A stretch of DNA of 55,164 nucleotides, taken from a virus. The notes under the pieces were generated by a model. That model worked only from the letters and a program-made list of their open reading frames with translations. It was not told where the DNA came from and did not search any database. The stretch lies in the IMG/VR virus record IMGVR_UViG_3300046816_000301, positions 1 through 55,164 of that record; one strand, 5' to 3'. Below, one piece after another: positions 3,732-39,288 of the stretch; the stretch's first letter is position 1, and each line of letters opens with the position of its first letter. The position numbers and the translations under genes were made by a program.

Positions 3732-4334
3732 ATGAGCGTTGCAGACCAGGAAGCAGAGCTGGACGATATCATCGATCGCGTGCTCGTCCTCTCGGACAAC
3801 CCGGACGTCGAGGACGCGCTGATCCTGCGCCTGCAATACGACATCGCCGCGAAGATCCATCTCCCCGAGGAAATCGTCCGGCGCTACGGCCTGCCGGACC
3901 TGGATGCCTTGAAGGAATACCTGGTCCAGCACCCGCAAGTGGTGTTCGGCGCTAAAAAACTCCGGGCGCTGTTCGAGAGCGGTGAGGGCGTCGAAGCCCG
4001 CATGCGGGCCAAGTTTCAGTTCGCCACCGAGGACTGCATCCCGGTGATCAGCCAACTGGTGAACAACCCCTCGGTGCCGTTCGCGGCGAGGATAGATGGT
4101 TTCAAACAACTACAGAGAGGGGCGGGCGCCGACGGCGCCGGCCGCGCCGAGGGACGTGGGCCGCTCAGCAGCGGGCAGAGTTTTGTGTTGAATATTTTCC
4201 TAGACCCGAAGCACCGCACGACGATCTCGGGGACAACAGTAGATAACCCCGGAGACATTCCGGGGGCGTATGACCCGCCGAGATTAGCTCTCGGCGAGGA
4301 GGGCGAGGAACCCGACGAGGAAGCTGATGTGTGA
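3732..4334 (+). CDS. Probable small terminase subunit
   Basis: The gene encodes 200 residues and lies 72 bp before the large terminase on the same strand, the usual place of the small subunit that recognises the packaging site. The N-terminal half is helical (DQEAELDDIIDRVL, then LPEEIVRRYGLPDLDALKEYL, a possible helix-turn-helix). The middle has a GAGADGAGRAEGRGP linker. The C-terminus is acidic (EEGEEPDEEADV). No strong Shine-Dalgarno precedes the ATG. Two perfect hairpins lie near the 3' end (4247-4265 and 4276-4296). The function is inferred mainly from position and size. Confidence 0.55.
   Translation: MSVADQEAELDDIIDRVLVLSDNPDVEDALILRLQYDIAAKIHLPEEIVRRYGLPDLDALKEYLVQHPQVVFGAKKLRALFESGEGVEARMRAKFQFATEDCIPVISQLVNNPSVPFAARIDGFKQLQRGAGADGAGRAEGRGPLSSGQSFVLNIFLDPKHRTTISGTTVDNPGDIPGAYDPPRLALGEEGEEPDEEADV
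4276..4296 (+). repeat. Intragenic perfect hairpin (8-bp stem, 5-nt loop)
   Basis: CGCCGAGA-TTAGC-TCTCGGCG lies inside the small terminase gene. It follows another perfect hairpin, CCCCGGA-GACAT-TCCGGGG, at 4247-4265. Neither is followed by a T-run. Confidence 0.7.
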
Positions 4335-6075: not shown

Positions 6076-6306
6076 ATGGAAGTAATTAGAACTCCCAGCG
6101 TCACCGGCATCGTCGAGTATCTTGAGCGCCTGCTGAAGCAAGCCCACGCCGGCGAGCTGTCAACCGTGTTCGTCGTATCGTTCAAGGCCGGAGACAGCAC
6201 CTGGCTGTCGGTCGAGAAGGGCGTGCGCCTGGATCGGCTAAGAGCGATCGGGGTGCTCGAGTGCATGAAGCTCGACCTGATGCGCTCGATGGATACTGAG
6301 GAGTGA
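6076..6306 (+). CDS. Hypothetical protein, 76 aa
   Basis: This small soluble protein has a helical start (GIVEYLERLLKQAHAGEL), a strand region (STVFVVSFKAGDSTWLSVEKG) and a helical end. GGGGATAAATA precedes the ATG. It is the first gene after the terminator, and its stop overlaps the GTG of the next gene. I recognise no family. Confidence 0.65.
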   Translation: MEVIRTPSVTGIVEYLERLLKQAHAGELSTVFVVSFKAGDSTWLSVEKGVRLDRLRAIGVLECMKLDLMRSMDTEE

Positions 6307-8686: not shown

Positions 8687-9069
8687 GCGTTTTTTCCTGC
8701 ATATAGGTTTTATAGATAGGTAGCTTAGCTTACGATGTTCCCTGTAGAATGCCAACGCAATAAGGCGTGAATTTAGGTTCGTAATATACATAAAATGCTA
8801 GTTATTACGAAATTTAATAACCTCGAATTTTAACCACGACGAAACGTAGCATTTTAGTGACTTCGGAAATTTATCATTCTCGTGGCGACGCGTTACGTGG
8901 GCGCCCGGCCTGGCCGGCCCCCCTTGGACAGCTACCCCCCGGGGGCCTGGCCGTGCCTTGGCCGGTGACAGAAAGCGGTGACAGAAAACCCTACCGTAGG
9001 GAATTTGGGCAGAAACTATCGGATGACACAGTAGTGAGGGTTCCCCTCGTTTTCATAGGAGATACTAAA
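8687..9069. other. Intergenic region between divergent genes
   Basis: About 200 bp of AT-rich DNA (8700-8880) next to the zinc-ribbon start is followed by a GC-rich block at 8900-8965 with CCCCCCGGGGGCC and GGCCGGCC palindromes. A 15-bp palindrome lies at 8989-9002. Promoters for both flanking genes should be here, but I see no convincing -35/-10 pair. Confidence 0.5.
8989..9002. repeat. 15-bp palindrome copy (first base A)
   Basis: CCCTACCGTAGGGA preceded by A instead of T. It lies 68 bp before the GTG of the next gene, where an operator would be expected. Confidence 0.85.
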
Positions 9070-9867
9070 GTGAGTGAGAAGAAATTGACTGGAAAGCTGT
9101 TGGTCGCCGATATTGTCGGGAAGCAAATCGCAACTCTTGAAGACGTTTACGCTGACGTGAACGTTGCGACCGATGGTCTTAGTGTCGCCAACAAGGCAGC
9201 ATCCGCCGAGCGCCGCACCATAATGGATAACTGCGCTGCACTCGCACTTACGCACAACTTCACGGCTGAGGAAATAAAGCTTGGCGTAGAGGCAGCAATC
9301 ACCAGCTACAAGGGCAATGCGCTGGCACAAAAGACGCTCGACAACATCAAGAGCGAACTTAAGTCCGTAATGCATCCAAACGTTCGAGCCAAGCTGCCAG
9401 AACTACGCAAACTTGCGAAGAGCGTCATCGCCGATAAGACGCGGTATGCCGATCTTGCTGACGCATTTAGCGGCAGGGAAGATTTCATCGTGGCACGCGT
9501 TGCGGCTGACGCTGCCAAAGCGCGCCACGATTTGAAGGAACCGCCAGTCACAGTTGAGGGTCTACGGTCGCTTGTGACCAAACGTGACACGGCACGTTCG
9601 CAAAGCATCCCGCGCGTAAAGGGTAAGCTGAAGACGATGATAACCATCTGCAACGAGGCGGAAGCTATCCTTAAGCTGCCGCAGTTCGCCAAGATCCGAG
9701 TACTATGCGAAGCGTTGAACGATGACGCTACCCTAAAGGCGGCGCTCGCCAAATACATAACGGAAACGAAAAACGCCAGCAACCTGCGCGGCGCGAACGG
9801 CAAGGAAAAGGCCGCACCTGCGGAAGGCGCGAGTGATATGGATGACGTGCTAAACGACGCGGCCTAG
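9070..9867 (+). CDS. Hypothetical protein, 265 aa
   Basis: I chose GTG 9070 because AGGAGA lies 10 bases upstream; a frame open to 8857 runs through intergenic GC hairpins. The protein is mostly helical and lysine-rich, with an N-terminal strand region (KKLTGKLLVADIVGKQIATL), repeated amphipathic helices (TAEEIKLGVEAAITSYKG, KLPELRKLAKSVIADK) and an acidic end (SDMDDVLNDAA). It has no signal peptide or membrane segment. It is monocistronic between its own operator-like palindrome and a double terminator. The base composition is less GC-biased at third positions than its neighbours, suggesting later acquisition. I recognise no family. Confidence 0.7.
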   Translation: MSEKKLTGKLLVADIVGKQIATLEDVYADVNVATDGLSVANKAASAERRTIMDNCAALALTHNFTAEEIKLGVEAAITSYKGNALAQKTLDNIKSELKSVMHPNVRAKLPELRKLAKSVIADKTRYADLADAFSGREDFIVARVAADAAKARHDLKEPPVTVEGLRSLVTKRDTARSQSIPRVKGKLKTMITICNEAEAILKLPQFAKIRVLCEALNDDATLKAALAKYITETKNASNLRGANGKEKAAPAEGASDMDDVLNDAA

Positions 9868-9892
9868 CAAACCGCACTACCTACACCTACCC

Positions 9893-9921
9893 TGCCCCCA
9901 GTGAAAACTGGGGGCATTTTT
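9893..9921 (+). terminator. Rho-independent terminator
   Basis: TGCCCCCAGT-GAAA-ACTGGGGGCA followed by TTTTTGCG, 26 bp after the preceding stop. This is a textbook GNRA-looped terminator. Confidence 0.92.
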
Positions 9922-9966
9922 GCGTTTAAAACGCAACGGTATCGTGGCGTTGATAAACCATCTAGG

Positions 9967-9995
9967 AAGGCCGCCAGTGCGGCCTTTTGTGTTTT
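9967..9995 (+). terminator. Second tandem terminator
   Basis: AAGGCCGC-CAGT-GCGGCCTT followed by TTGTGTTTT. It backs up the terminator 50 bp upstream. Confidence 0.8.
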
Positions 9996-10635
9996 GGCTA
10001 GGGAGGTACCTGCGACACGCTAGACCCTACTCACGCGCCACGAGGCGCCGGCGCTGGCCTATTCTACGCGTGACCCATGCCCTACAAGTCCTATAGACGC
10101 CCTGCCGACGCCGTGCCGACGCCGTGCCGACACGGTGTAAGTAACACAGCGCAAGTGTCACTCCAAAAACCTACACTGTCACGTCGCAGTAGTTGGGAAA
10201 CTAGATAGTAATTCGCCACTACGAGGGTATAACATACTGATAACGCGTAATCTTACGCGTTCCGCCGAAACGCGAGCGATGGAAGAGAGCTGAATTAGTC
10301 CGCACGTTTTACGATAGGACGCGGCGCCGTACCCGACAATTTTATCCGTAAGACGCGAACTAGGGGCAAACACGGGGTATAAACCGCTGATATTTATATA
10401 TATTATTTTAAGACTATTATTATTATTATACTAACTCGGTTTGACGATACGTGGATTTAGTCGATTTCCTAATTGCTATGGTCGCCGTCGATGTCTCTTT
10501 ATGTACCCCTATCTTTCCGGTTTAGATTAATAGAGTAGGTACTAATAGAAAAACATTGTTTGTTATGAATGGTTTAAACCCCCGGCATTATTCTAGGATG
10601 CTGACATTGCGACGCTGAATTTGCTACCCACAAAA
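9996..10635. other. Gene-free AT-rich region, candidate origin or control region
   Basis: I see no convincing gene here. The stretch has a tandem GCCGACGCCGT repeat (10101-10135), the sequence AAGTGTCACTCC at 10153, and a perfect hairpin AACGCGTAA-TC-TTACGCGTT at 10242-10261. It also has a very AT-rich tract at 10388-10432. It ends at a 15-bp palindrome and the direct-repeat array. An AT-rich tract beside an iteron-like array is typical of replication origins, but no DnaA box cluster is visible. Confidence 0.5.
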
Positions 10636-10650
10636 TCCCTACGGTAGGGA
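10636..10650. repeat. 15-bp palindrome copy (TCCCTACGGTAGGGA)
   Basis: A perfect copy with G centre, abutting the first repeat of the TGACCCC array without a gap. Confidence 0.9.
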
Positions 10651-10900
10651 ATGACCCCTATTTGGCGCTTAGCCGCTACCATAAAAATATTATTTCTATA
10701 AAGTGACCCCTATTTGGCGGATGCTATCGTCGAAAGTGACCCCTATTTGGCGGATGCGAGTGTGAAAGTGACCCCTATTTGGAGCGTGCGATGTCGAGTG
10801 TGACCCCTCAATCGTCGCGTATCAAGATCACTTTGACCCCTATTTTGGAGCGTAGGGTCCGCGACACGCAGATTGCAGCCGGAAATGTGACCCCTTTTTC
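10651..10900 (+). repeat. Iteron-like array of seven TGACCCC repeats
   Basis: The core (G)TGACCCCTATTTGG starts at 10651, 10703, 10736, 10768, 10800, 10833 and 10887. Spacings are 52, 33, 32, 32, 33 and 54 bp, close to three or five helical turns, so all copies face the same side of the DNA. Repeats two and three share GTGACCCCTATTTGGCGGAT. The last three lie inside the RHH gene and encode its VTP, LTP and VTP residues. The array could be an operator or a replication origin. Confidence 0.8.
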
Positions 10901-10994
10901 GCGCTTCATCGTGCATCTGATCGAGCGCGGACTGGATCAGCTCGACGCGGAATTGATAGGAGAGGAGCAAACGGATGAGCAAGAGGAAGCGTAA
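10791..10994 (+). CDS. Ribbon-helix-helix (CopG-like) DNA-binding protein
   Basis: This 67-residue protein has a strand (RIKITLTPILE), helix 1 (RRVRDTQIAAG) and helix 2 (TPFSRFIVHLIERGLDQL), the order of RHH/CopG repressors, which bind DNA as dimers through the strand. The C-terminus is acidic (EEQTDEQEEA). ATG 10791 uses the GGAG of the fourth array repeat as Shine-Dalgarno; TTG 10779 is an alternative. The gene lies within the repeat array, so autoregulation by binding those repeats is the simplest idea. A plasmid-like replication-control role is also possible. The end overlaps the next gene. Confidence 0.7.
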   Translation: MSSVTPQSSRIKITLTPILERRVRDTQIAAGNVTPFSRFIVHLIERGLDQLDAELIGEEQTDEQEEA

Positions 10995-11169
10995 ACGCAC
11001 CGTAAAAACATCCACCGTAGAAATAGGTATGTGGTCGAGACCGGGGTTCCGTCGAGTGGAACCCCTGTCTTCACCGCTCGCAGGTACCTTAGACTACGAT
11101 CAGCTCGGCCGTCACCGTCATACACTAAACGAACTACGTGACCGGAGGAAAGGTTATGTCACTTACTAA
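10975..11169 (+). CDS. Small basic protein, 64 aa
   Basis: ATG 10975 has GGAGAGGAG just upstream and overlaps the RHH gene by 20 bases. The product starts with a very basic SKRKRKRTVK and has an Arg-rich end. It contains no recognised domain and may bind nucleic acid. The end overlaps the next gene. Confidence 0.6.
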   Translation: MSKRKRKRTVKTSTVEIGMWSRPGFRRVEPLSSPLAGTLDYDQLGRHRHTLNELRDRRKGYVTY

Positions 11170-11413
11170 GCTGACCGTAATGCAAGAGGTCGTGTTACAC
11201 CGCGACGTGAGCCTAGCGCTGCGCTCGACGCTGCGCGACTGCGAGAACGGTATGCCGGAAGAGTTGGTAGTAAACTCGCTCGCGCTTAATAATGTCCCGG
11301 TCGAGATCACGCGCGGCGTGATCGCGTTGCTTCTTAATGCTGAGTGGATCGCCCGTCGAGATGGGCGCTTGTACTATGTGAGTTACGACGAAACAAAGGA
11401 TCAAAAACTATGA
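11156..11413 (+). CDS. Small protein with winged-helix-like pattern
   Basis: ATG 11156 follows GGAGGAAAGGTT. The 85 residues run through helices (LRSTLRDCENGMPEELVVNS; VEITRGVIALLLNAEWI) and end in a hairpin-like RRDGRLYYVSYDE. Helices followed by a beta-wing suggest a small wHTH regulator. That is a structural impression only. Confidence 0.6.
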   Translation: MSLTKLTVMQEVVLHRDVSLALRSTLRDCENGMPEELVVNSLALNNVPVEITRGVIALLLNAEWIARRDGRLYYVSYDETKDQKL

Positions 11414-11449
11414 CCGATCAGAGGTATACTTGGTAAAACAAAGTAATAC

Positions 11450-11478
11450 TTGACATTTACAATAACGTGTGGTATAAT
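11450..11478 (+). promoter_or_regulatory. Consensus sigma-70 promoter of the early operon
   Basis: TTGACA (11450-11455), a 17-bp spacer and TATAAT (11473-11478) match the vegetative promoter exactly. Transcription should start near 11485 and read into the long plus-strand operon. A 15-bp palindrome at 11506-11520 lies in the expected 5' leader, suited to a repressor site or leader hairpin. Confidence 0.85.
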
Positions 11479-11505
11479 CAAAATAAAACCCAAGTAACCG
11501 CAAAT

Positions 11506-11520
11506 TCCCTACTGTAGGGA
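11506..11520. repeat. 15-bp palindrome copy (TCCCTACTGTAGGGA)
   Basis: A perfect copy with T centre, between the consensus promoter and the first ribosome site of the early operon. Confidence 0.9.
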
Positions 11521-11540
11521 AAATCTTTAGGAGAGTAGAA

Positions 11541-11576
11541 ATGGACGAGTTGAACATGACAGACTGTCGAGTTTGA
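11541..11576 (+). CDS. Possible leader peptide, 11 aa
   Basis: ATG 11541 has a good Shine-Dalgarno (AGGAGAG) and encodes MDELNMTDCRV, then TGA one base before the next ATG. The strong ribosome site belongs to this mini-ORF, so the next gene is probably translated by coupling. Confidence 0.45.
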   Translation: MDELNMTDCRV

Positions 11577-11577
11577 G

Positions 11578-11718
11578 ATGACCGACACAATGGAAAACTT
11601 CCTTGCCGATCTTCGTTTCATTCTGTCAACGCGCGGTGCTTTGCGGCATCAGCCGCTTGTGCGCAGCCATTTCTGGCGTCGGCTCGAAGAATTGCGCGGG
11701 CGAGCGGCTTTTCGATAA
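11578..11718 (+). CDS. Hypothetical small basic protein, 46 aa
   Basis: It opens one base after the leader-peptide stop, with no Shine-Dalgarno of its own. The product is helical and Arg-rich (HFWRRLEELRGRAAFR). It is the first gene behind the strong early promoter, a slot often used for host-takeover proteins. No family was recognised. Confidence 0.5.
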   Translation: MTDTMENFLADLRFILSTRGALRHQPLVRSHFWRRLEELRGRAAFR

Positions 11719-11776
11719 AACCGCAGTCGCGGCCAAGGTGGGCGCGCGCTGTAACCCTTAACCAAGGAGAGACTAA

Positions 11777-12073
11777 ATGACTGAGTATGTTTCCGAGTTC
11801 GGCAAACGGTGGGACGCTCGTGTCCCGCGAGGTGATATTCACTGGTACATGGGTCGCGTCCACGTCGCCACGTCCGACGAAGACGTCGCGGCCGATATCC
11901 GCAAGCGCTGTACCGCGCCGGGTTTCACCGAGACGCTTATCAAGGCGTCGATCAGGTATGCGCTCGTGTGTCACAAGCGCAATCGTCAGCTATACCACTA
12001 CGTCGCCCATCCGCGTGGCGACGCAGAGCTGCGCCACAACATGGACCGTTGGCAGAGGGAGCTAAAGCGGTGA
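11777..12073 (+). CDS. Hypothetical protein, 98 aa
   Basis: AAGGAGAG precedes ATG 11777. The protein combines strands (GDIHWYMGRVHVATSD) with helices (DEDVAADIRKRC; FTETLIKASIRYALVCHK) and ends in a basic helix. It has two Cys and many aromatic residues. It overlaps the following GTG gene. No family was recognised. Confidence 0.65.
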   Translation: MTEYVSEFGKRWDARVPRGDIHWYMGRVHVATSDEDVAADIRKRCTAPGFTETLIKASIRYALVCHKRNRQLYHYVAHPRGDAELRHNMDRWQRELKR

Positions 12074-12264
12074 AGAAACTGCACTGTGAAGCTCGCTCGG
12101 CTCCACTGGCTGAGCCTGTCGGGTTGTGTAAGCGCGGCAGCGTGTTTACGACGATCACCCGTCGCGCGTTCGACCGTGTCGTGCCGGCGCGAGCGTGCGC
12201 GAAGTGCAGCTACCAGCTGCGCAAGCTCAAGCGCGGTGCTACCGCGCCCACTTGGTACAGATAA
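12070..12264 (+). CDS. Small Cys-containing protein, 64 aa
   Basis: GTG 12070 overlaps the previous stop. The product has C..., GLC and CAKC, a possible single zinc site, in a basic background (RRAFDRVVPARACAKCSYQL). An overlapping plus-two frame from ATG 12086 exists but has no ribosome site. Confidence 0.5.
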   Translation: MKKLHCEARSAPLAEPVGLCKRGSVFTTITRRAFDRVVPARACAKCSYQLRKLKRGATAPTWYR

Positions 12265-12278
12265 TATAGGAGTGATAG

Positions 12279-12500
12279 ATGTCTGAATTGTTCGTAGGTA
12301 TCATGTTCGTCGGGTCGTGGGTGTTCTTCGCGGCGATAACAGAACCGCCGTGGGTAGGCGTGTTCCTCATCGGGTTGGCATCGTGCGGCGGGCTGTACGG
12401 TCTCGCCAACCACGTCGACGCATCTGCTTGGCAAGCGTGGGGCGGCATCATGCTGCTCGGCGTCGTCATCCTGATCGGCCAATACAAATACGGCCGTTAA
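12279..12500 (+). CDS. Small inner-membrane protein, three TM segments
   Basis: ATG 12279 follows TATAGGAGTGATAG. The 73 residues contain three hydrophobic helices (about 4-20, 25-43, 53-69) with few charges and end YKYGR. It could act in superinfection exclusion or membrane association of replication; no family was recognised. Confidence 0.65.
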   Translation: MSELFVGIMFVGSWVFFAAITEPPWVGVFLIGLASCGGLYGLANHVDASAWQAWGGIMLLGVVILIGQYKYGR

Positions 12501-12505
12501 ACCCG

Positions 12506-12520
12506 TCCCTACCGTAGGGA
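12506..12520. repeat. 15-bp palindrome copy (TCCCTACCGTAGGGA)
   Basis: A perfect copy, six bases after one stop and 19 before the next ATG. Confidence 0.9.
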
Positions 12521-12539
12521 CTTTTTAGGAGCATGAAAA

Positions 12540-12719
12540 ATGGCACGTTATGAGGTTCGGGTTGTCTATCGCGGTCTGTCTAACTTCATCGTCGAGGCCG
12601 CGACGCCGGAAGAGGCCAAGGAGAAGGCACGGGAGATGTTCAACAACGGCGAGGAGGCGCCGGTGCTCGGCAACGAGTGGGAAGAGATCGACACCGTTCA
12701 CATGCCTATCCAGATCTAA
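12540..12719 (+). CDS. Hypothetical protein, 59 aa, beta-alpha-beta-like
   Basis: The segments read MARYEVRVVYRGLSNFIVEA (strand-strand), TPEEAKEKAREMF (helix) and EEIDTVHMPIQI (strand). TAGGAG lies upstream of the ATG. It resembles the small single-domain proteins common in phage early operons. It immediately precedes the AAA+ gene. Confidence 0.6.
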   Translation: MARYEVRVVYRGLSNFIVEAATPEEAKEKAREMFNNGEEAPVLGNEWEEIDTVHMPIQI

Positions 12720-12736
12720 ACTCAGGAGAACTTCAA

Positions 12737-13993
12737 ATGAACTTATCAGAAGCAAAACAGGTGATGCTGCGCACCCACATCGGCGCGATCGAGCATGAGC
12801 TGCGAGCGGTCTCCATCACGATGGAGAGCATGCCTGGCGTGGGTAAGAGCGAGGCGCTCTTCCAGTACGCGCAGATGCTCGCGCACCGCCTCAACGAACC
12901 CGTCGGGGTCGTTGTCTGCATGCTCGCGTCCATCAGCTCGGCCGATGTTCGCGGGTTCATGATCCCCATGCGTGGATCTCCACCCAAGAGCGTGTTCTCG
13001 CTCCCGCCGTGGTACCCCACCAACGACGAAGAGGAGGTGGACGGGGAGGTCACAACCAAATCGGTGAACTACTGGGTGATTGACCCGTCGGGTCAGTGGT
13101 ACCGCGAAAGCGGTTGGCACGACGCGATGCCCGAGACGGGGATCGTGTTCCTCGACGAGTGGGGCCAGGCCGAGGAGGACGTCAAGAAGCCCGCAGCTGA
13201 ACTCCAGCTTAATGGGAACGTCGGGACCCACCGGCTCCCCATCAAGTGGCGCGTCGTCGCCGCGCAGAACCGCACGAGCGACCGCTCGGGTGTCATGCGT
13301 GAGATGATGCACATTATTAATAGGAGGATGTTGTTAAAAATAGATAGCTCCGTCCCGACGTGGCTGCAGTGGACCGACGAGCAGGTGGGCTTTATGCGGC
13401 CACACTTTATGACCGTCGCGTTCGCGAGACAAAATCCCGATATTGTCTTCAGGGACTCAGTTCCTGATGGCACCGATCCCTACTGCACACCTAGAACACT
13501 GTGCATGATGGATCGCACGTTGAGGATGTTGGTGGAGTACGAGCCTCGCAGGCTCGATCCTTCGGGAAGCTCGGCGAGCAGTGCGCAGCCGAGCGGGAGC
13601 GAGTGGGAAAAAGAACTCCCCACTGATGATATAGCGAGGGAGTGCGCAGCGGGATTGATCGGCGGCGCGGCCGCCGGTCAGTTCATGACCTTCCTCAAGT
13701 ACTTCGACCTCCTGCCCACGATCGAGGAGATCATAGATGATCCGAGTGAGGCAAAACTCCCGTCGGGTCACGACGCCCAGATGGTCGCGGCGTTTATGCT
13801 AGCTCATCATATTGATGAGCAGAACGCCGATCCGTTCCTGAAGTACATTTTCAGGATGGTCCCCGAGATGCAGATACTCAGCGTGCAGATCGTCAACGCC
13901 GATCCCAAGCGGGCGCAGTTTTTGTATCCGCTGCCGGGGTTCCAGCGCTTCCTCACCCAGCACAAAGATCTGCTGGTCGGGAGTTACATGTGA
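12737..13993 (+). CDS. MoxR-type AAA+ ATPase
   Basis: ATG 12737 has CAGGAGAA upstream, giving 418 residues. Walker A is PGVGKSE (33-39) and Walker B is GIVFLDEWGQ (about 135-144). A sensor-like VVAAQNRTSDRSG follows, with the double arginine NRRMLL after it, all as in MoxR ATPases. These remodel protein complexes together with a VWA-domain partner, here encoded at 15413. Residues about 276-292 (SGSSASSAQPSGSEWEK) are encoded by copy D of the structured repeat read in frame, between two helical parts. Given phage context, an assembly or host-remodelling chaperone is plausible; the substrate is unknown. Confidence 0.85.
   Translation: MNLSEAKQVMLRTHIGAIEHELRAVSITMESMPGVGKSEALFQYAQMLAHRLNEPVGVVVCMLASISSADVRGFMIPMRGSPPKSVFSLPPWYPTNDEEEVDGEVTTKSVNYWVIDPSGQWYRESGWHDAMPETGIVFLDEWGQAEEDVKKPAAELQLNGNVGTHRLPIKWRVVAAQNRTSDRSGVMREMMHIINRRMLLKIDSSVPTWLQWTDEQVGFMRPHFMTVAFARQNPDIVFRDSVPDGTDPYCTPRTLCMMDRTLRMLVEYEPRRLDPSGSSASSAQPSGSEWEKELPTDDIARECAAGLIGGAAAGQFMTFLKYFDLLPTIEEIIDDPSEAKLPSGHDAQMVAAFMLAHHIDEQNADPFLKYIFRMVPEMQILSVQIVNADPKRAQFLYPLPGFQRFLTQHKDLLVGSYM
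13564..13611 (+). repeat. Structured repeat, copy D, inside the MoxR gene
   Basis: GGAAG, stem GCTCGG (13569-13574), loop CGAGCAGTGCGCAG, stem CCGAGC (13589-13594), then GGGAGCGAGTGGGAAAAA. The 5' flank has diverged from GAGCGAAG. The 6-bp stem is perfect but different in sequence from copies A, C and E. Confidence 0.75.
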
Positions 13994-32238: not shown

Positions 32239-35200
32239 CTATTGCGGCAGGTAGCGGGTCTGTTGCCGCACCTGCTGCAGCTGCTTCGGCGATACGGTCA
32301 GCCCGTAGGTACCCGGCGCATTCTTACGTGCTTCCTGTTGTGCTTTAACAAGCGAGTCGTAGGTGATCGGGTTCCCCGGATAGTTCCGGTTGAACTCCGA
32401 CACTGCCTTCCCGACCGCGCCAAGTCCGTCGATCACCGCCCGGTTAAAGATCTGCGAGCGCTCGTCTTTTTCCTCGGCCATAAAGTCGTTGATCGCCTTG
32501 CGGCCAGCGTAAAAATCACTGATGTCCATCGGGTTAAAGCCGATCGCCTTAGCGATCACGTCACCCGTCGAGATTTGCGACGAGGGGAGGATCACCCGGC
32601 CGCGCGAGTCCTTTACCCCGACCCGGCTGTACTCTTCAGCAGTTACCATATCGCGCAGGATACGCGCCGGAACCATCTTGATTAGCCCTGCTGGGTTGCC
32701 GCGAAACAGGTCGTAGACACCCTGTGCCAACGACGCTACGTCGCCACCCGAGACGCCAAAGAGTTGGTTCGCCACCGTCTTCGACATCTCCTGCGGGCTG
32801 AGATCGCGGAAGTCGGGGAGCATGAGTAAATTATTCAGCCCGAGGCTCGAGCTGACGTCGACCCCGGCGAGCGACGGCAACCCCTTGGTCGCCACCATCG
32901 CCATCGTCGGCCCGATCTGATCGGCAAGCGCCGTCCGGATAATGCGGTCAAAGTCGCGCGGCTGCTTGCGGCCGGTGATCCAGTCGTAGGCGCCGAGCAG
33001 GCCCTTAGCGACTTCTTCGGCGATCGGGATCGACGCGCCGCCAACCAGAGCGTGGTACGCGACGATGCCGCCGAGTTGCTTGAGGGCGATCGCGCGCTCT
33101 CCTGCGTCCCCGCCCCGATAAGCCTCGCGGGTGAGGTTGGCGTAGAGGCCGAACTGGTGCAGCGCGAAGTTGCGGAACTGGAATAAAGGTTTCGCCAGCG
33201 CACCCAGCGGGCCGCGCTGCGAAGCCAGCCACGGCGCGTTGTAGGCGTTCCAGTTGGGTGTGACGACACGGGCATGCTCCATCGCCTTGTCGAGCGCCGC
33301 ATCCAGGTTACCACCGTTCTTTGCCAGCTCCAGATCCACCGCAGCCTTGGCGAAGGTCATGCGGCCCATCGTCTCGACCGCGTTGTCCATCTGCGACATG
33401 GCGCCAAGGGTGCGCTCCTGCAGACTGGCGAGCTTGTTCCAGCTCGAGCCGGGTCGCCCCATCTCCGCCGCCACCGAGGCATGGCTGATGTCGATCATAT
33501 TGGCCGCCACCATGCGGTCGTAGAGCTTGTTCGCCAGTTCAGGGTTGACCCCGTTGGCGATCATCCGGTCGCGGATCAGCGCGCCGTTTTCCCAGTTCAC
33601 CTTCTTGAGGTTGCCCCCCATCTGGGAGAGCATGTTGTTCATTCCCAACCGTAGGGATTTCCCGAACCCGACCTCGCCCTGTGCTTTGGCGGTGGCACGC
33701 AGCGCCGCTGCCTGGCCGTAGCGCCCGCCCAGCAGGGACTGGTTCATCGCGTGCATCCCGACCAACTCGATGGGCATTCGGGCCGGGCGCAGCAGCGACG
33801 AGATAAAGCCGAAATTGGTCAGGAGCTTCGCCGCGCCGTTGACGAACCCCTGGCTCTCGTCGAGGTTCGGCATCCGCTTGCGCATCTGGTTGACGTAATC
33901 CTGCGCCGTGATGCCCTCACCGGGTTTGCCGGACCGCCCCAGATAGTCCGCCCTAGCCTGCATCCGGTTGAGCGTTTCCTCGCGGCCGACATGGCTGGCG
34001 AGGAACCCCATGCGCTGGGCATGGGTATCGTAGGCGTCGCGGTCGACCCGGTTCATATCCTCCGACGCACCGAGCACGCCCTTGCGCGCGCCCATGCGCC
34101 GCGCCGACGCCTCAGTGGCGCGTTTTAAAAAGATCGAGGTGAAGACGTCGTGCACACTCGCAGCCGACTGGTCGGACCAGCCTCTGCGGCGCAACTCCTC
34201 ATCGAGCGCGCTCATCAGCTCGCTCGGCACCTGCTGGCGTCGCGCATACTCAGCCTTGGTCTGCACCTGGCTCGGCTCGAGCTTATCGGCGGCGAACTGC
34301 GCCCGCGCCCGCTCCGCGTCGTAGCGGCTCTCGAACATGTGGACGCCGTAACCCGGTGTGCCCTGGTCGCCGTAAGTGACCATGTAGTCGCCAAAGCGGC
34401 GCAGCGGGAAGTAATCCCCCTGCACCCGGTTCATGTCGTTAAACCGCGCGACCATATCTACCAGCTTGCGGCTGTTCTGGTAACGCTCGCCCATCGTCAT
34501 CGCCAGTGGGCTGGCGTCGGGGTTGGCGAGGAACTCCTGAGTGCCGGCGCGGGTGTAGAACTGCTGCTGCGCCGCCGCGCGATCGGCGGGGGTCGAGTCG
34601 GGTGCGGCGAAGCGCATCATCGAGTCGAGATCGCCGGCGCGTTCACGCTCGTAGAGCTTCTGGTGAAACTCCTGACGGTCCTGGTAGATCCGCTTCGAGG
34701 TGTCGGGCAGGTCATTCCAGTTTGCCTGTAACCGTTGCAGCTCCTTCAGCTGCTCGCTGCTGGTGAGGTGCGCGTTAGCGGTGGGGTCGCTGGTTCCCAT
34801 CTTGGCGTTGAGGTACCCGACATCGTTGGTGAACTGCGCCAGCGCGGTGCGGTCGCGCTCGCCGAGGCGGCCAATGTCCTCGTTGAGTTTCTGCTGAGTG
34901 TCCTTGAATAATTTGCGCTCAGCGCGGCTCACCTCGGCGCCGCGCTCGGTCTCTGCCCGGTGATCGGCGAAATGGTTAGCGCCGGTGTCGGGGTCGCGGA
35001 AGAGGTTACCACTGGCACGGATCATCGCGTCGACGTTTGACCCGTTCATCTCGCCCCTACGTAGGGACTCACCCAGGCGGCTGCCGCCTCGCGCCACCTG
35101 CTCGGTCACCATGTCGCGTGCCCGCTCGGACAGCGGCGGGGCGCTGAGCACATGACCGCCCAGCTCGACGGCGCTTCGTAGTCTAGCATCCTGGATGCCA

Positions 35201-38200
35201 CGCAGGATCGCCGGGTCGCGGCGGTAACGCGCACCGGCGTCGGCCACGTCGCCGAGCGCCCGCATCGCGTGGCCCAGCACATTGTCGGTGCTCGACGTGA
35301 GGCCAAAGGCCCGGCGCAGAAACCCACGGAACGCCGACCACGGTGTAGCGCGTTCCTCCTTGTTGTAACCCAGCCGCTCCATCGTGCGCTGGAACTCAGA
35401 GCTGGGGGTGCTGCGTGCTAGAACATTTTGAGCATGGGCGCTAGTAAGCAACGTCGCCGTTAACTCATGAAAGTCCGTAGTCGCATAAAGTGAGTGCGCC
35501 ATCTCCATGTCGGTCATGGCCGAGTCGCGCATCATGATATCCGCGACTTCCTTGCGGATCGCTTCGAGCGCGTCGAGGTGACGGATCTGCTCGGGCGTTG
35601 CCCGCCCTTCGCTTCGCGCCTTAACGGCTGCGTTGATATAATGCGCCGTCGCCGCATGCACAGCTTCGTGCAGCGCCGTCTCGACGCCACCACCGCCGTA
35701 CCTCCCGACGATGACAGTGTCTGTAGCAGGGTCGTAATAGGACGGGCCGTCTATAGACCGTTCGAGACCAAAGAGGTGCGCCGCGTCCTCGTGGATCACC
35801 CGCGTCGACGCTGGTATTATCTTCTTCAAAATCGCCGCGAGTGCACGAGCGTGGTGCAGCCCCGCCGTGCTGAGCTTGGAGTTGTCGGTGATCGCGTCGA
35901 GTACCTCGTGCAGACTTGTACTTGCCTGCTCTCGCGTCGCCCCCTCGGCTGTACCGCTCGCCTCGATGCGATTGTAGATCGCTTCCAGTGGTTCGTTGAC
36001 GCCGGGGGTACCGAAGCGGTTCGCCACCTGGCGATCGGGTGACGGCGGGGCGTTGTGGGTCTGATCCTTAGCTGCCTTGATGCGCGCCAGCTCGGCGTCG
36101 AGTTCATCCTCGGCTGATTTGAGCGCAGCGGCGCCTTCGGGGCGCGGCTCCAGCGACTCGCCGATCTGTTGCTGGATTTCAGCCTGGTGCTCGCGGAGGT
36201 CCTTGTAAAACTGGATGTCGTCCTCGATCCGCCCCCTCGCCTCGGGGGTACGAGCACGTTCTTGCTTAGCTTGGAGATCGGGGATGGTGTTGTCGTCGCG
36301 CGCCTTAACCAATTCGTCGTGGAGATATTTTACAAAGCTTGGACGCTGCGGACCGCGCGTGCCGGCTTGTGGTAGCTCACGCATTACCTGGTCGACAAAG
36401 TTGGTCCCGCCGGCGATCTCCTTGGCGCGGCTGCGGTAGACCGATTTGTAGTCCGACGAAGGAGCTTCCTTCTTGCCGGTGCTCTCGTCGGGAATATCAC
36501 GGGCGCGGCCGGCCGGCTCCGCCGTGCGCGCCGCGCGCACCTCCTGCGCCATACGCGACTGGCGCTTGGGAGCAACATTACCTTCCTCGACGGTCTTAAA
36601 CTCGGGAGCTTCGCCCTCGGCGACCGCGACAGAACCACGTTCTGGCGTGATACCTAGCTTCTTGCGCAGCTGCTCGCGGGTTACCAACGCGACGCCGACC
36701 GGCTCACCCCTCGCCTTGGCCGCTGCCGTTGCTTCCCGTGCCGTCGGCGCCGGAGTAGGAGCTGGCGCCTGCTCGGCAGGCTTCTCTAATACCGCGACCT
36801 CGCCCGCCGGCGCTGCTTCGGTTGCCGTTCCCGCCTTACCCTCGGCAATAATTTGATCCCGACCTTCGTTTAACCGTCGGGTCTGCTCCGCTAATGATGC
36901 AGCTCGCGCTGCCGGTTCCGCCTCACTCCCTACCGTAGGGAGTTCACCTCGTGCCGTCGCCCGATCGGCGCGGTCGCGCGCGGCCTGCATCGCCTCCTCG
37001 GGCGAGCTGCCCACCGACAAGACGTCCTTGCCGTGCTTGACGACATACTGTCCTGGTGTCTGGTCGTCCGGCTCGACGCGCCATCCGGTCTGATCGGCGA
37101 GCTTAAAAGGTAAACCTTGCTGCTCTTCGAGCGGCAACCCGGGCTGCTCGCCCGCACGCCCCTCCGGCCCGCCTAGAGGCGGCTGACGTAGAGGAAGCTC
37201 GCCTTGAGGCGGTGCAGGCTCGACGCCGGGAAGCTCACCCTGGCGTGCCTCTGGCGGCACACCTTCGACAGGGCGCGGCGGCGCCTCGGCCGGCGTGATG
37301 GGTTGTTCAGGAACAGCGCGGCCAAACGGCAGCTGTGGCTGGTCGCCCAGCGGCAAGCCGGGACCACCACCACCACCACCACCACCGTCGGGTGGTCCCC
37401 CGCCGGGTGCCTGTGGCGGCAGTCTTGAGCCTGGCTGCAAGGGCAGCTCGGGTTGCACCGGCGGTGGCTCGACACCGGGCAAGCCAGCCTGTGTCGCCCC
37501 TGGCATACCGGGCTGCTCCGGTATTTGTCGCGCGCCCAGCGGTGGAGGAGGGGGCGGAGGTGGCGCCGACGGCGCTGGCCCTGCGGCACCGGGTATCACA
37601 TCACCCTCGGTGCCGGCAGCCTGCTGGCGTGCCTGCTCGACGGTGGCTGCCTGTGCTGCCAGATCGGCCGGGCCGCGCACCAACGGCGCGCCGGGGGGCG
37701 GTGGCGGCGGTGGCGGCTGCCCGATACCGCGAGCGGCGGCGGTTGCCGGCAGGCCGGGCAGGGTAGGGTTAAGCGCCATCGCCGGTGGCGCTGCGCCGGC
37801 GGTAGGCGGAGGTTGGACGTTCCCTTGCTCGACCGTACGAAAGGTATCCGAGGTCGTGCTCGGCTGATTGGGATTGATCGCTTGGTTGAGCGCCGCCTGC
37901 TGGTCGACATCGGCGGGGTTGCCGGGCACTACTTTAGTAACATCACGCGTCGGTTTAACTTCACCGGGGTGCAGGTAGGTACCCGCGCCGCCGATCAGCA
38001 CGCCTTGCACGGCACCGGTAGCAGCTCCCTCGACCAGCTGCTTCCAGTCCATATCCCCCATCTTATCGAGGAAGTCCCCGAACGATTTAGCCTGGGCGAT
38101 CGCCTGGGGCGTCTGGTTCTGCACCGCGCCGGCGGCACCAAGGATTGCGTTGATCCCGCCCGCTGTCGCGATGTTGCGGATGAGACCCTTGCCGGCGGTG

Positions 38201-39288
38201 GTTGCCAGCAGTGCCGGAGCGCCGCCCATCAGCACCGAGTTGGCGAGCATGCTCTCGGCGATCGCGTTATTATCGCCGTTGGTTTCGCGTCTTGCCTTGT
38301 CAAAACCGTAAAGCGCGCCGACCGCCGCGAATGGCAGCGAGGCGGCGAGCGCGCCCTGCCCGGCGCCAGGTGCCGCAGCAAAGACTGCAAGCTGCGGCGC
38401 CATCTCCGTAAGGCGCTCGGCAACATAAGTCAGCGCGTCACCACCCGACTTGATGTCTGCATAACTTTTGATCGTCGGCGGTAGCTGCTGATTGACCCAC
38501 TCGCCAACTTCGTTCGCCTTATTGGTAACCGCGCTGTAGACGTTCTTCTCGACCTCGGCAACCTTCGACGGCCCGGTTGGCGTCACCTGCTGACCCTCGG
38601 CGCCAAAGGGCATCGAGGGATCGAGGAAGCGGCTCGGGCTATTCGGATCGGTCTGCGTGCCAGCCCCGCCAATCCCCTGCTCGACCGCCGTCGCGGGACC
38701 TCCGACGACGCTCGACACCGTCTGCGTGACATACGGCACAATCGACTGCACCGCGCTGGCGATACCACGTCCTAGCGCCTTACCCTCGGTCGCCCAGAAC
38801 CCGGACTTATCTTCCGGCTCGGGGATGTTGGGCTGGCCCTGCGCCGCCGTCTCCTCGGGCGACATTTGATAGGCCGTGTCGACGCCGGGAATGTTTGTCA
38901 CCGTGCCTACGGCGCCGGGCGGTGGTTGTTGCGGCTGCATAAAGGCCGGCGCCGACAGCGGCGGCGGTGGAGTCGTCGCCAGCGCCCGGTAGGGCTGCAC
39001 GCGCGACCCCGAAAGCGCCTGTGTCGGCGACGCTCCTGGCACCGGAGCTTGGTACGAGTACTGCGGCAGCTGCGCCGGTGGTTGGTAGGGCGCGGCGGGG
39101 ATCGGTGAAGGTTGTGGCGCAGGCTGTGCGTAAGGTGAAGGTGCCGGCGCCTGCTCGGTGCTGGCCTGCTGCGGCCAGCCGGCGCTGAGCATCTGGTCGA
39201 TCTGCATCTGCGTCGAGTCGTAGCCACCCGACGATTGTTGTTCTTCCAGTTGGTCCTGGAGTTCTTCACTAGAAGTGTCGATGGCCAT
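32239..39288 (-). CDS. Giant polyvalent ejection/internal virion protein (2349 aa) with zincin domain
   Basis: The N-terminal 150 residues are Pro/Gln-rich. A hydrophobic Ala/Gly-rich region follows at about 290-430 (APQLAVFAAAPGAGQGALAA and after), suited to membrane interaction during DNA ejection. A long Pro/Gly tract lies at 480-720. Near residue 1205 is ALHEAVHAATAHYI, an HExxH zinc-peptidase motif, followed by FHELTATLL as a possible third ligand region. The C-terminal 700 residues are helical and end in a segment typical of polyvalent-protein domains (LPD38-like: PLFQFRNFALHQFGLYANLT). Such proteins are packaged and injected with the DNA. The palindrome occurs three times within the gene. 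Confidence 0.8.
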   Translation of the reverse strand: MAIDTSSEELQDQLEEQQSSGGYDSTQMQIDQMLSAGWPQQASTEQAPAPSPYAQPAPQPSPIPAAPYQPPAQLPQYSYQAPVPGASPTQALSGSRVQPYRALATTPPPPLSAPAFMQPQQPPPGAVGTVTNIPGVDTAYQMSPEETAAQGQPNIPEPEDKSGFWATEGKALGRGIASAVQSIVPYVTQTVSSVVGGPATAVEQGIGGAGTQTDPNSPSRFLDPSMPFGAEGQQVTPTGPSKVAEVEKNVYSAVTNKANEVGEWVNQQLPPTIKSYADIKSGGDALTYVAERLTEMAPQLAVFAAAPGAGQGALAASLPFAAVGALYGFDKARRETNGDNNAIAESMLANSVLMGGAPALLATTAGKGLIRNIATAGGINAILGAAGAVQNQTPQAIAQAKSFGDFLDKMGDMDWKQLVEGAATGAVQGVLIGGAGTYLHPGEVKPTRDVTKVVPGNPADVDQQAALNQAINPNQPSTTSDTFRTVEQGNVQPPPTAGAAPPAMALNPTLPGLPATAAARGIGQPPPPPPPPGAPLVRGPADLAAQAATVEQARQQAAGTEGDVIPGAAGPAPSAPPPPPPPPLGARQIPEQPGMPGATQAGLPGVEPPPVQPELPLQPGSRLPPQAPGGGPPDGGGGGGGGPGLPLGDQPQLPFGRAVPEQPITPAEAPPRPVEGVPPEARQGELPGVEPAPPQGELPLRQPPLGGPEGRAGEQPGLPLEEQQGLPFKLADQTGWRVEPDDQTPGQYVVKHGKDVLSVGSSPEEAMQAARDRADRATARGELPTVGSEAEPAARAASLAEQTRRLNEGRDQIIAEGKAGTATEAAPAGEVAVLEKPAEQAPAPTPAPTAREATAAAKARGEPVGVALVTREQLRKKLGITPERGSVAVAEGEAPEFKTVEEGNVAPKRQSRMAQEVRAARTAEPAGRARDIPDESTGKKEAPSSDYKSVYRSRAKEIAGGTNFVDQVMRELPQAGTRGPQRPSFVKYLHDELVKARDDNTIPDLQAKQERARTPEARGRIEDDIQFYKDLREHQAEIQQQIGESLEPRPEGAAALKSAEDELDAELARIKAAKDQTHNAPPSPDRQVANRFGTPGVNEPLEAIYNRIEASGTAEGATREQASTSLHEVLDAITDNSKLSTAGLHHARALAAILKKIIPASTRVIHEDAAHLFGLERSIDGPSYYDPATDTVIVGRYGGGGVETALHEAVHAATAHYINAAVKARSEGRATPEQIRHLDALEAIRKEVADIMMRDSAMTDMEMAHSLYATTDFHELTATLLTSAHAQNVLARSTPSSEFQRTMERLGYNKEERATPWSAFRGFLRRAFGLTSSTDNVLGHAMRALGDVADAGARYRRDPAILRGIQDARLRSAVELGGHVLSAPPLSERARDMVTEQVARGGSRLGESLRRGEMNGSNVDAMIRASGNLFRDPDTGANHFADHRAETERGAEVSRAERKLFKDTQQKLNEDIGRLGERDRTALAQFTNDVGYLNAKMGTSDPTANAHLTSSEQLKELQRLQANWNDLPDTSKRIYQDRQEFHQKLYERERAGDLDSMMRFAAPDSTPADRAAAQQQFYTRAGTQEFLANPDASPLAMTMGERYQNSRKLVDMVARFNDMNRVQGDYFPLRRFGDYMVTYGDQGTPGYGVHMFESRYDAERARAQFAADKLEPSQVQTKAEYARRQQVPSELMSALDEELRRRGWSDQSAASVHDVFTSIFLKRATEASARRMGARKGVLGASEDMNRVDRDAYDTHAQRMGFLASHVGREETLNRMQARADYLGRSGKPGEGITAQDYVNQMRKRMPNLDESQGFVNGAAKLLTNFGFISSLLRPARMPIELVGMHAMNQSLLGGRYGQAAALRATAKAQGEVGFGKSLRLGMNNMLSQMGGNLKKVNWENGALIRDRMIANGVNPELANKLYDRMVAANMIDISHASVAAEMGRPGSSWNKLASLQERTLGAMSQMDNAVETMGRMTFAKAAVDLELAKNGGNLDAALDKAMEHARVVTPNWNAYNAPWLASQRGPLGALAKPLFQFRNFALHQFGLYANLTREAYRGGDAGERAIALKQLGGIVAYHALVGGASIPIAEEVAKGLLGAYDWITGRKQPRDFDRIIRTALADQIGPTMAMVATKGLPSLAGVDVSSSLGLNNLLMLPDFRDLSPQEMSKTVANQLFGVSGGDVASLAQGVYDLFRGNPAGLIKMVPARILRDMVTAEEYSRVGVKDSRGRVILPSSQISTGDVIAKAIGFNPMDISDFYAGRKAINDFMAEEKDERSQIFNRAVIDGLGAVGKAVSEFNRNYPGNPITYDSLVKAQQEARKNAPGTYGLTVSPKQLQQVRQQTRYLPQ
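33643..33657. repeat. 15-bp palindrome copy, one mismatch, intragenic
   Basis: TCCCAACCGTAGGGA inside the giant gene. Confidence 0.65.
35055..35067. repeat. Palindrome copy without centre base, intragenic
   Basis: CCCTACGTAGGGA inside the giant gene, encoding the SLRRG stretch on the minus strand. Confidence 0.8.
36927..36941. repeat. 15-bp palindrome copy (TCCCTACCGTAGGGA), intragenic
   Basis: A perfect copy in the giant gene; with flanking bases the symmetry extends to ACTCCC...GGGAGT. Confidence 0.9.
37368..37386 (-). repeat. CCA/TGG triplet microsatellite
   Basis: A run of CCA triplets on the plus strand encodes a poly-Gly tract in the giant protein. Such runs can slip and change length. 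Confidence 0.75.

Follow-up and report, generated by a model that had tools for sequence, protein, structure and literature searches.

Introduction

In bacteriophage lambda, the iterons of the replication origin are embedded in the coding sequence of gene O, whose product is a large initiator. Among ribbon-helix-helix (RHH) proteins, MetJ is an autorepressor, and the core of its binding site, the MetJ box, is GACGTC. Plasmid pMBL6842 encodes an RHH antitoxin, PrpA, that blocks the initiator and binds iterons of the origin, which adjoin an AT-rich element (PMC7848731). It is common for RHH proteins to occlude the promoters of their own genes and to polymerise on the operators (PMC5569661). The RHH protein omega, which is the ParB of pSM19035, binds non-palindromic 7-bp repeats, and these heptads form parS arrays over the promoters of its own and its partner genes (PMC9499535).

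Here we analyze an array of seven TGACCCC iterons that runs into the gene of a 67-aa RHH-like protein in one virus record 55,164 bases long (hereafter, the window). As for PrpA, the proposal is that an RHH-type protein acts on arrayed iterons near an AT-rich element and regulates itself. Unlike PrpA, the protein belongs to a phage and not a plasmid, no toxin partner was identified, the iterons extend into the gene, and no initiator was recognised. The locus shares with omega an RHH-type protein and non-palindromic 7-bp direct repeats in arrays overlapping control regions, but the heptads of omega are contiguous, whereas the repeats here lie 32-54 bp apart and no ParA accompanies them. The presence of iterons within the coding sequence of a candidate replication-region DNA-binding protein recalls lambda; unlike O, this protein is small and RHH-like, and in a distant relative (L049) the array lies at the 3′ end of the gene. 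The predicted strand-helix-helix is in register with the strand of CopG and has an R-x-K-x-T strand, and the L049 motif TGACGTCA resembles the MetJ box core. In contrast to CopG, MetJ and other RHH autorepressors, the similarity in sequence is sub-threshold, the array is long and spaced, and the gene is inverted in a relative.

Results

The phage and its relatives

The window encodes a large terminase, a portal, a major head protein, a family A DNA polymerase and an SNF2-type helicase, as well as a DUF927 primase/helicase, a MoxR-like ATPase with a DUF2201 metallopeptidase partner, and a tyrosine integrase. When region 8800-13000 was used as query, no DNA match was found among 50,697 phage records. 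Rhizobium phages, RHph_TM27A among them, come closest of the annotated phages, but at 27-28% protein identity the relation is only distant; RHph_TM27A has an AT-rich gap, without an array and without an RHH homologue. Further relatives were gathered by means of the MoxR ATPase aligned with its homologue in L030, which gave about ten phages with 43-49% identity. Two scans of bacterial genomes for relatives residing as prophages found none.

The iteron array

The initial annotation proposed seven TGACCCC repeats at spacings of 52, 33, 32, 32, 33 and 54 bp, with the last three inside a gene and one supplying its Shine-Dalgarno sequence. This was borne out exactly. The seven copies, all on the + strand, are located at 10652..10665, 10704..10717, 10737..10750, 10769..10782, 10801..10814, 10834..10848 and 10888..10901, so that the array spans 10652-10901. 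Copies 1-4 match the 14-mer TGACCCCTATTTGG perfectly, copy 6 has it with one extra T, and in copies 5 and 7 only TGACCCCT is retained. Copies 2-5 constitute a 32-33-bp tandem repeat. TGACCCC occurs 16 times in the window against 6.9 expected, a count reached by none of 100 shuffles. With a weight matrix the seven array copies scored 17.7-26.1, and the next best site in the 55 kb scored 10.8. The array is real, non-random and unique in this phage by a wide score margin.

The RHH-like gene (10791..10994, + strand) starts with the ATG at 10791. Its Shine-Dalgarno sequence GGAG (10781..10784, + strand) lies 6 nt before the ATG, and the tail of copy 4 is part of it. Copies 5, 6 and 7 are read as Val-Thr-Pro (residues 4-6), Leu-Thr-Pro (residues 15-17) and Val-Thr-Pro (residues 33-35). 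Thr-Pro is encoded by ACCCCT in all three cases, as opposed to 1 of the 75 other Thr-Pro pairs of the phage, and codon usage therefore does not explain these in-gene repeats. This bias and the intact copies in two close relatives support the view that the in-gene iterons are constrained as DNA.

The seven positions fit a period of 10.7-10.8 bp best (R=0.95). Such phasing has a chance of 0.04% if the spacings are taken as independent and of about 1.2% with copies 2-6 counted as a single tandem unit. The best period of the L049 array was also 10.7 bp, with p=0.08 by itself. Helical phasing at 10.7 bp is thus suggestive, and the proposal that the spacings are close to whole turns of DNA holds with modest evidence once the tandem unit is allowed for.

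The RHH-like protein

AF2 modelling with three sequences predicted a strand at residues 8-12 and helices at 17-29 and 35-45, with low confidence (pLDDT 64). Foldseek returned no structural match for the protein and NCBIfam no family match, and the Pfam family RHH_5 gave E=0.09 and 13 bits, below its cut-off of 26. The alignment with CopG was weak and in register. Since no match exceeded a curated family cut-off, we call the protein RHH-like, and the RHH fold is one we infer from the predicted model. The LTP and VTP residues encoded by the in-gene iterons would suit the helix starts of such a fold.

Two other roles were considered and rejected. A toxin-antitoxin pair was set aside, as none of the neighbouring genes examined looked like a toxin and the next ORF (64 aa, 10975..11169, + strand), which overlaps the end of the RHH-like gene, has a homologue at the same place in L030, a phage without the RHH-like gene. 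Likewise, the protein was rejected as a small terminase bound to a packaging site; the small terminase is probably encoded by the gene preceding the large subunit (3732-4334).

Close relatives keep the array

The IMG/VR contigs L003 and L004 encode an RHH-like protein with 96-97% identity, and they keep all seven cores and every spacing. Between L003 and the window, 1 of 98 iteron bases differs compared with 20 of 152 linker bases, without indels; the corresponding p-value of 0.0003 is too optimistic, because the linker changes probably represent few recombination events. The L003 linkers include two exact copies of TGACCCCTATTTGGAGTGCGCGATGTCGAAAG, a unit holding the Shine-Dalgarno sequence and the ATG. 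A wide pattern search of viral contigs required three copies of TGACCCCT. Its matches beyond the two close relatives looked like simple tandem repeats, repetitive coding sequence or other kinds of repeats and were discarded.

At L003:7086-7160, the exact duplication of the 32-bp repeat with its Shine-Dalgarno sequence and ATG creates an upstream reading frame of 14 codons, MSKVTPIWSARCRK; the first three bases of an iteron serve as its TGA stop. In an unrelated phage contig (L019, 157-963), a 33-bp repeat, TTGACCCCTATCCCGGAGTCGAGGTCAAAAG, lies in an apparent replication gene and recalls the lambda O iterons; it was set aside, having no link to the RHH-like protein studied here.

A distant relative with an inverted gene

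In L049 (IMGVR_UViG_3300036846_000476, 59.5 kb), one of the phages reached through the MoxR ATPase, the RHH-like protein has a 63-aa homologue (phmmer 3.4e-9, 45% identity). Its gene occupies the same syntenic slot, with the AT-rich tract on one side and the early genes on the other, but it is inverted, on the minus strand. The L049 array consists of TGACGTCA at 6077, 6100, 6140, 6163 and 6239 and CGACGTCA at 6205, and these five are all the exact copies of TGACGTCA in the genome. The sites lie downstream of and inside the 3′ end of the gene, three of them within it. The start codon is about 95 bp away from the nearest site, and there are no sites upstream of the gene. When site positions are compared with the two proteins, each in its own numbering, they overlap only at residues 33-35.

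The motif TGACGTCA is palindromic and TGACCCC is not; the two have the half-site (A)GTGAC in common. The strand residues, R-x-K-x-T in the window and R-x-Q-x-T in L049, differ at one position, where the protein of the window has K12 and its L049 homologue Q5. The initial annotation had made conservation of spacing in relatives a check of its reading: spacing is kept in L003 and L004, and in L049 both motif and spacing have changed. The view that array and gene form one unit is supported by the conservation of spacing and cores in the two close relatives and by the L049 homologue, which also has an array running into its gene. The architecture of AT-rich tract, palindrome and array entering the gene is thus kept, with motif, spacing and gene orientation changed.

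The array lies in a conserved AT-rich slot

The array is part of a slot opened by an intrinsic terminator-like hairpin (9893..9916, + strand), which closes the upstream gene (about 9070-9867). L030 and L049 have a hairpin at the same place. The position of the upstream gene is conserved across the group; the gene is fast-changing, has no informative family match, and could be the missing initiator. Further along is an AT-rich gene-free tract (10378..10477) with 74% A+T against a mean of 40%, the highest A+T of any 100 bp in the window. A 15-bp palindrome, TCCCTACGGTAGGGA (10636..10650), lies 1 bp before the first repeat and is a probable operator of another protein. The array thus does adjoin both elements, as had been noted originally. 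A direct-repeat array next to an AT-rich tract is what an iteron-type origin would present. No known initiator was recognised near the array, the slot contains no DnaA box, and GC skew gave no useful signal there. Not every phage requires DnaA boxes.

Synteny and a high A+T content mark the slot, and several relatives without the homologue carry lineage-specific repeats in it: CATAGGCG seven times around a (TA)n tract in L030, ATACTTCC eight times in L050, and copies of AAACTTTAGGGTTA in L033. In L056 and L054, other genes that are RHH-like by eye directly follow the gap, the one in L056 with a weak NikA-like match, and no array was detected in either. Slot repeats in L055, L057, L058 and RHph_TM27A were not above chance. 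A fixed, AT-rich, gene-free slot with lineage-specific repeats would fit an origin-like control region with co-evolving binding proteins.

A tyrosine integrase was found in the window and L049 only among 11 records, the same two that have the RHH-like gene and array; two of the 11 records are short, at 34 and 41 kb, and the positives number just two. No serine recombinase was found in any of the 11. The link of gene and array with lysogeny is a lead only. The RHH-like gene itself is present in just two independent lineages.

A possible function of the locus

We tentatively favour the reading that the locus is an origin-like control region, at which the RHH-like protein would coat the phased iterons, restrain replication and shut its own gene; we rate it somewhat short of an even chance. 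In this temperate phage, the region would comprise the AT-rich tract, the operator palindrome and the phased array entering the RHH-like gene. Dimers of the protein may bind the iterons through the half-site (A)GTGAC, with cooperative loading on a single face of the DNA. By analogy with PrpA, the resulting nucleoprotein could restrain the use of the adjoining AT-rich tract in replication. Binding, cooperativity and the effect on replication are what we infer from this arrangement. Shutdown of the protein's own gene would follow as a by-product, since its translation begins within the array. Tandem duplication of the 32-bp unit that contains the Shine-Dalgarno sequence and ATG of the gene may have enlarged the array.

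The array might instead be bound simply to repress the RHH-like gene and the next one by covering promoter and translation start. The array does cover the translation start and Shine-Dalgarno sequence, and such occlusion of a promoter by its own product is common among RHH proteins, as is polymerisation on the operators (PMC5569661). However, the stretch from 10450 to 10790 yielded no good sigma-70 promoter, and the inverted gene of L049 has its array at the 3′ end and further downstream. An autorepressor acting at the promoter does not explain the L049 array, because none of its sites is upstream of the gene. The inverted gene and 3′ sites argue against simple self-silencing as the whole function, which we regard as rather unlikely; they suggest that binding of the array by the protein serves to control replication or an early switch region and not only the protein's own gene. 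A further alternative is that the array serves as an origin for another phage protein, an initiator, and that the RHH-like gene merely overlaps it as gene O overlaps the lambda iterons. Relatives without the homologue do have lineage-specific repeats around the AT-rich tract in the same slot, but no initiator was identified, and in both homologue-bearing phages the array enters the gene, from opposite ends, with sites that share a half-site. We consider this explanation unlikely.

Tandem duplication at the gene start with coincidental Thr-Pro codons, and no binding function at all, would account for the clear 32-33-bp repeat of copies 2-5 and for LTP and VTP falling where RHH helices start. 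It is a very improbable reading given the ACCCCT bias, the intact cores among variable linkers and the independent array in L049. Hardly any credence is left for a centromere-like partition site bound by an RHH protein of ParB type: omega does bind non-palindromic 7-bp repeats that overlap promoters, both its own and those of partner genes (PMC9499535), but neither the window nor L049 encodes a ParA (PF13614), the repeats here are not contiguous, and the phage encodes an integrase.

A more specific form of the origin-like control region, distinctly doubtful in our estimate, is a lysogeny-linked origin silencer. Temperate members of a mostly integrase-less group would have placed the RHH-like gene within origin iterons, so that protein, sites and translation start evolve as a unit and the prophage origin is kept shut. 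The specificities for TGACCCC and TGACGTCA would have arisen through one strand residue and tandem duplication of sites. The origin-like control region, if correct, would be a compact case in which the gene of a DNA-binding protein is part of its own binding array, would point to a replication-control region in a phage group where none was identified here, and could explain how an integrated prophage of the group keeps its origin silent. The two natural variants, with changed motif and inverted gene, would then let specificity and function be tested by swapping.

Palindromes elsewhere in the window

With up to two mismatches, the palindrome TCCCTACGGTAGGGA occurs 15 times in the window against 0.12 expected. 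Written as TCCCTACNGTAGGGA, its 15 places range from 4337 to 54103 (e.g. 10636, 11506, 12506, 31075 and 31129), mostly before genes, a spread like that of operators or stoperators of an immunity repressor. A 2349-aa protein of the late region (32239-39288) matches the DarB-like antirestriction family and not the N4-type virion RNA polymerase. The palindrome as an N4-type hairpin promoter was dropped, this protein having no RNA polymerase match.

Region 11450-11520 holds the sole perfect sigma-70 promoter in the window (TTGACA-17-TATAAT) and, after it, a palindrome copy immediately preceding the next gene. The same promoter and palindrome pair is present in L049 at 6739 and 6816, and the arrangement looks like a repressed early promoter. 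The relatives have their own versions of the palindrome: CACTACNGTAGTG in L030, TTACTCCNGGAGTAA in L053 and TTAGTACCGGTACTAA in L049, where it starts 43 bp before the first array site.
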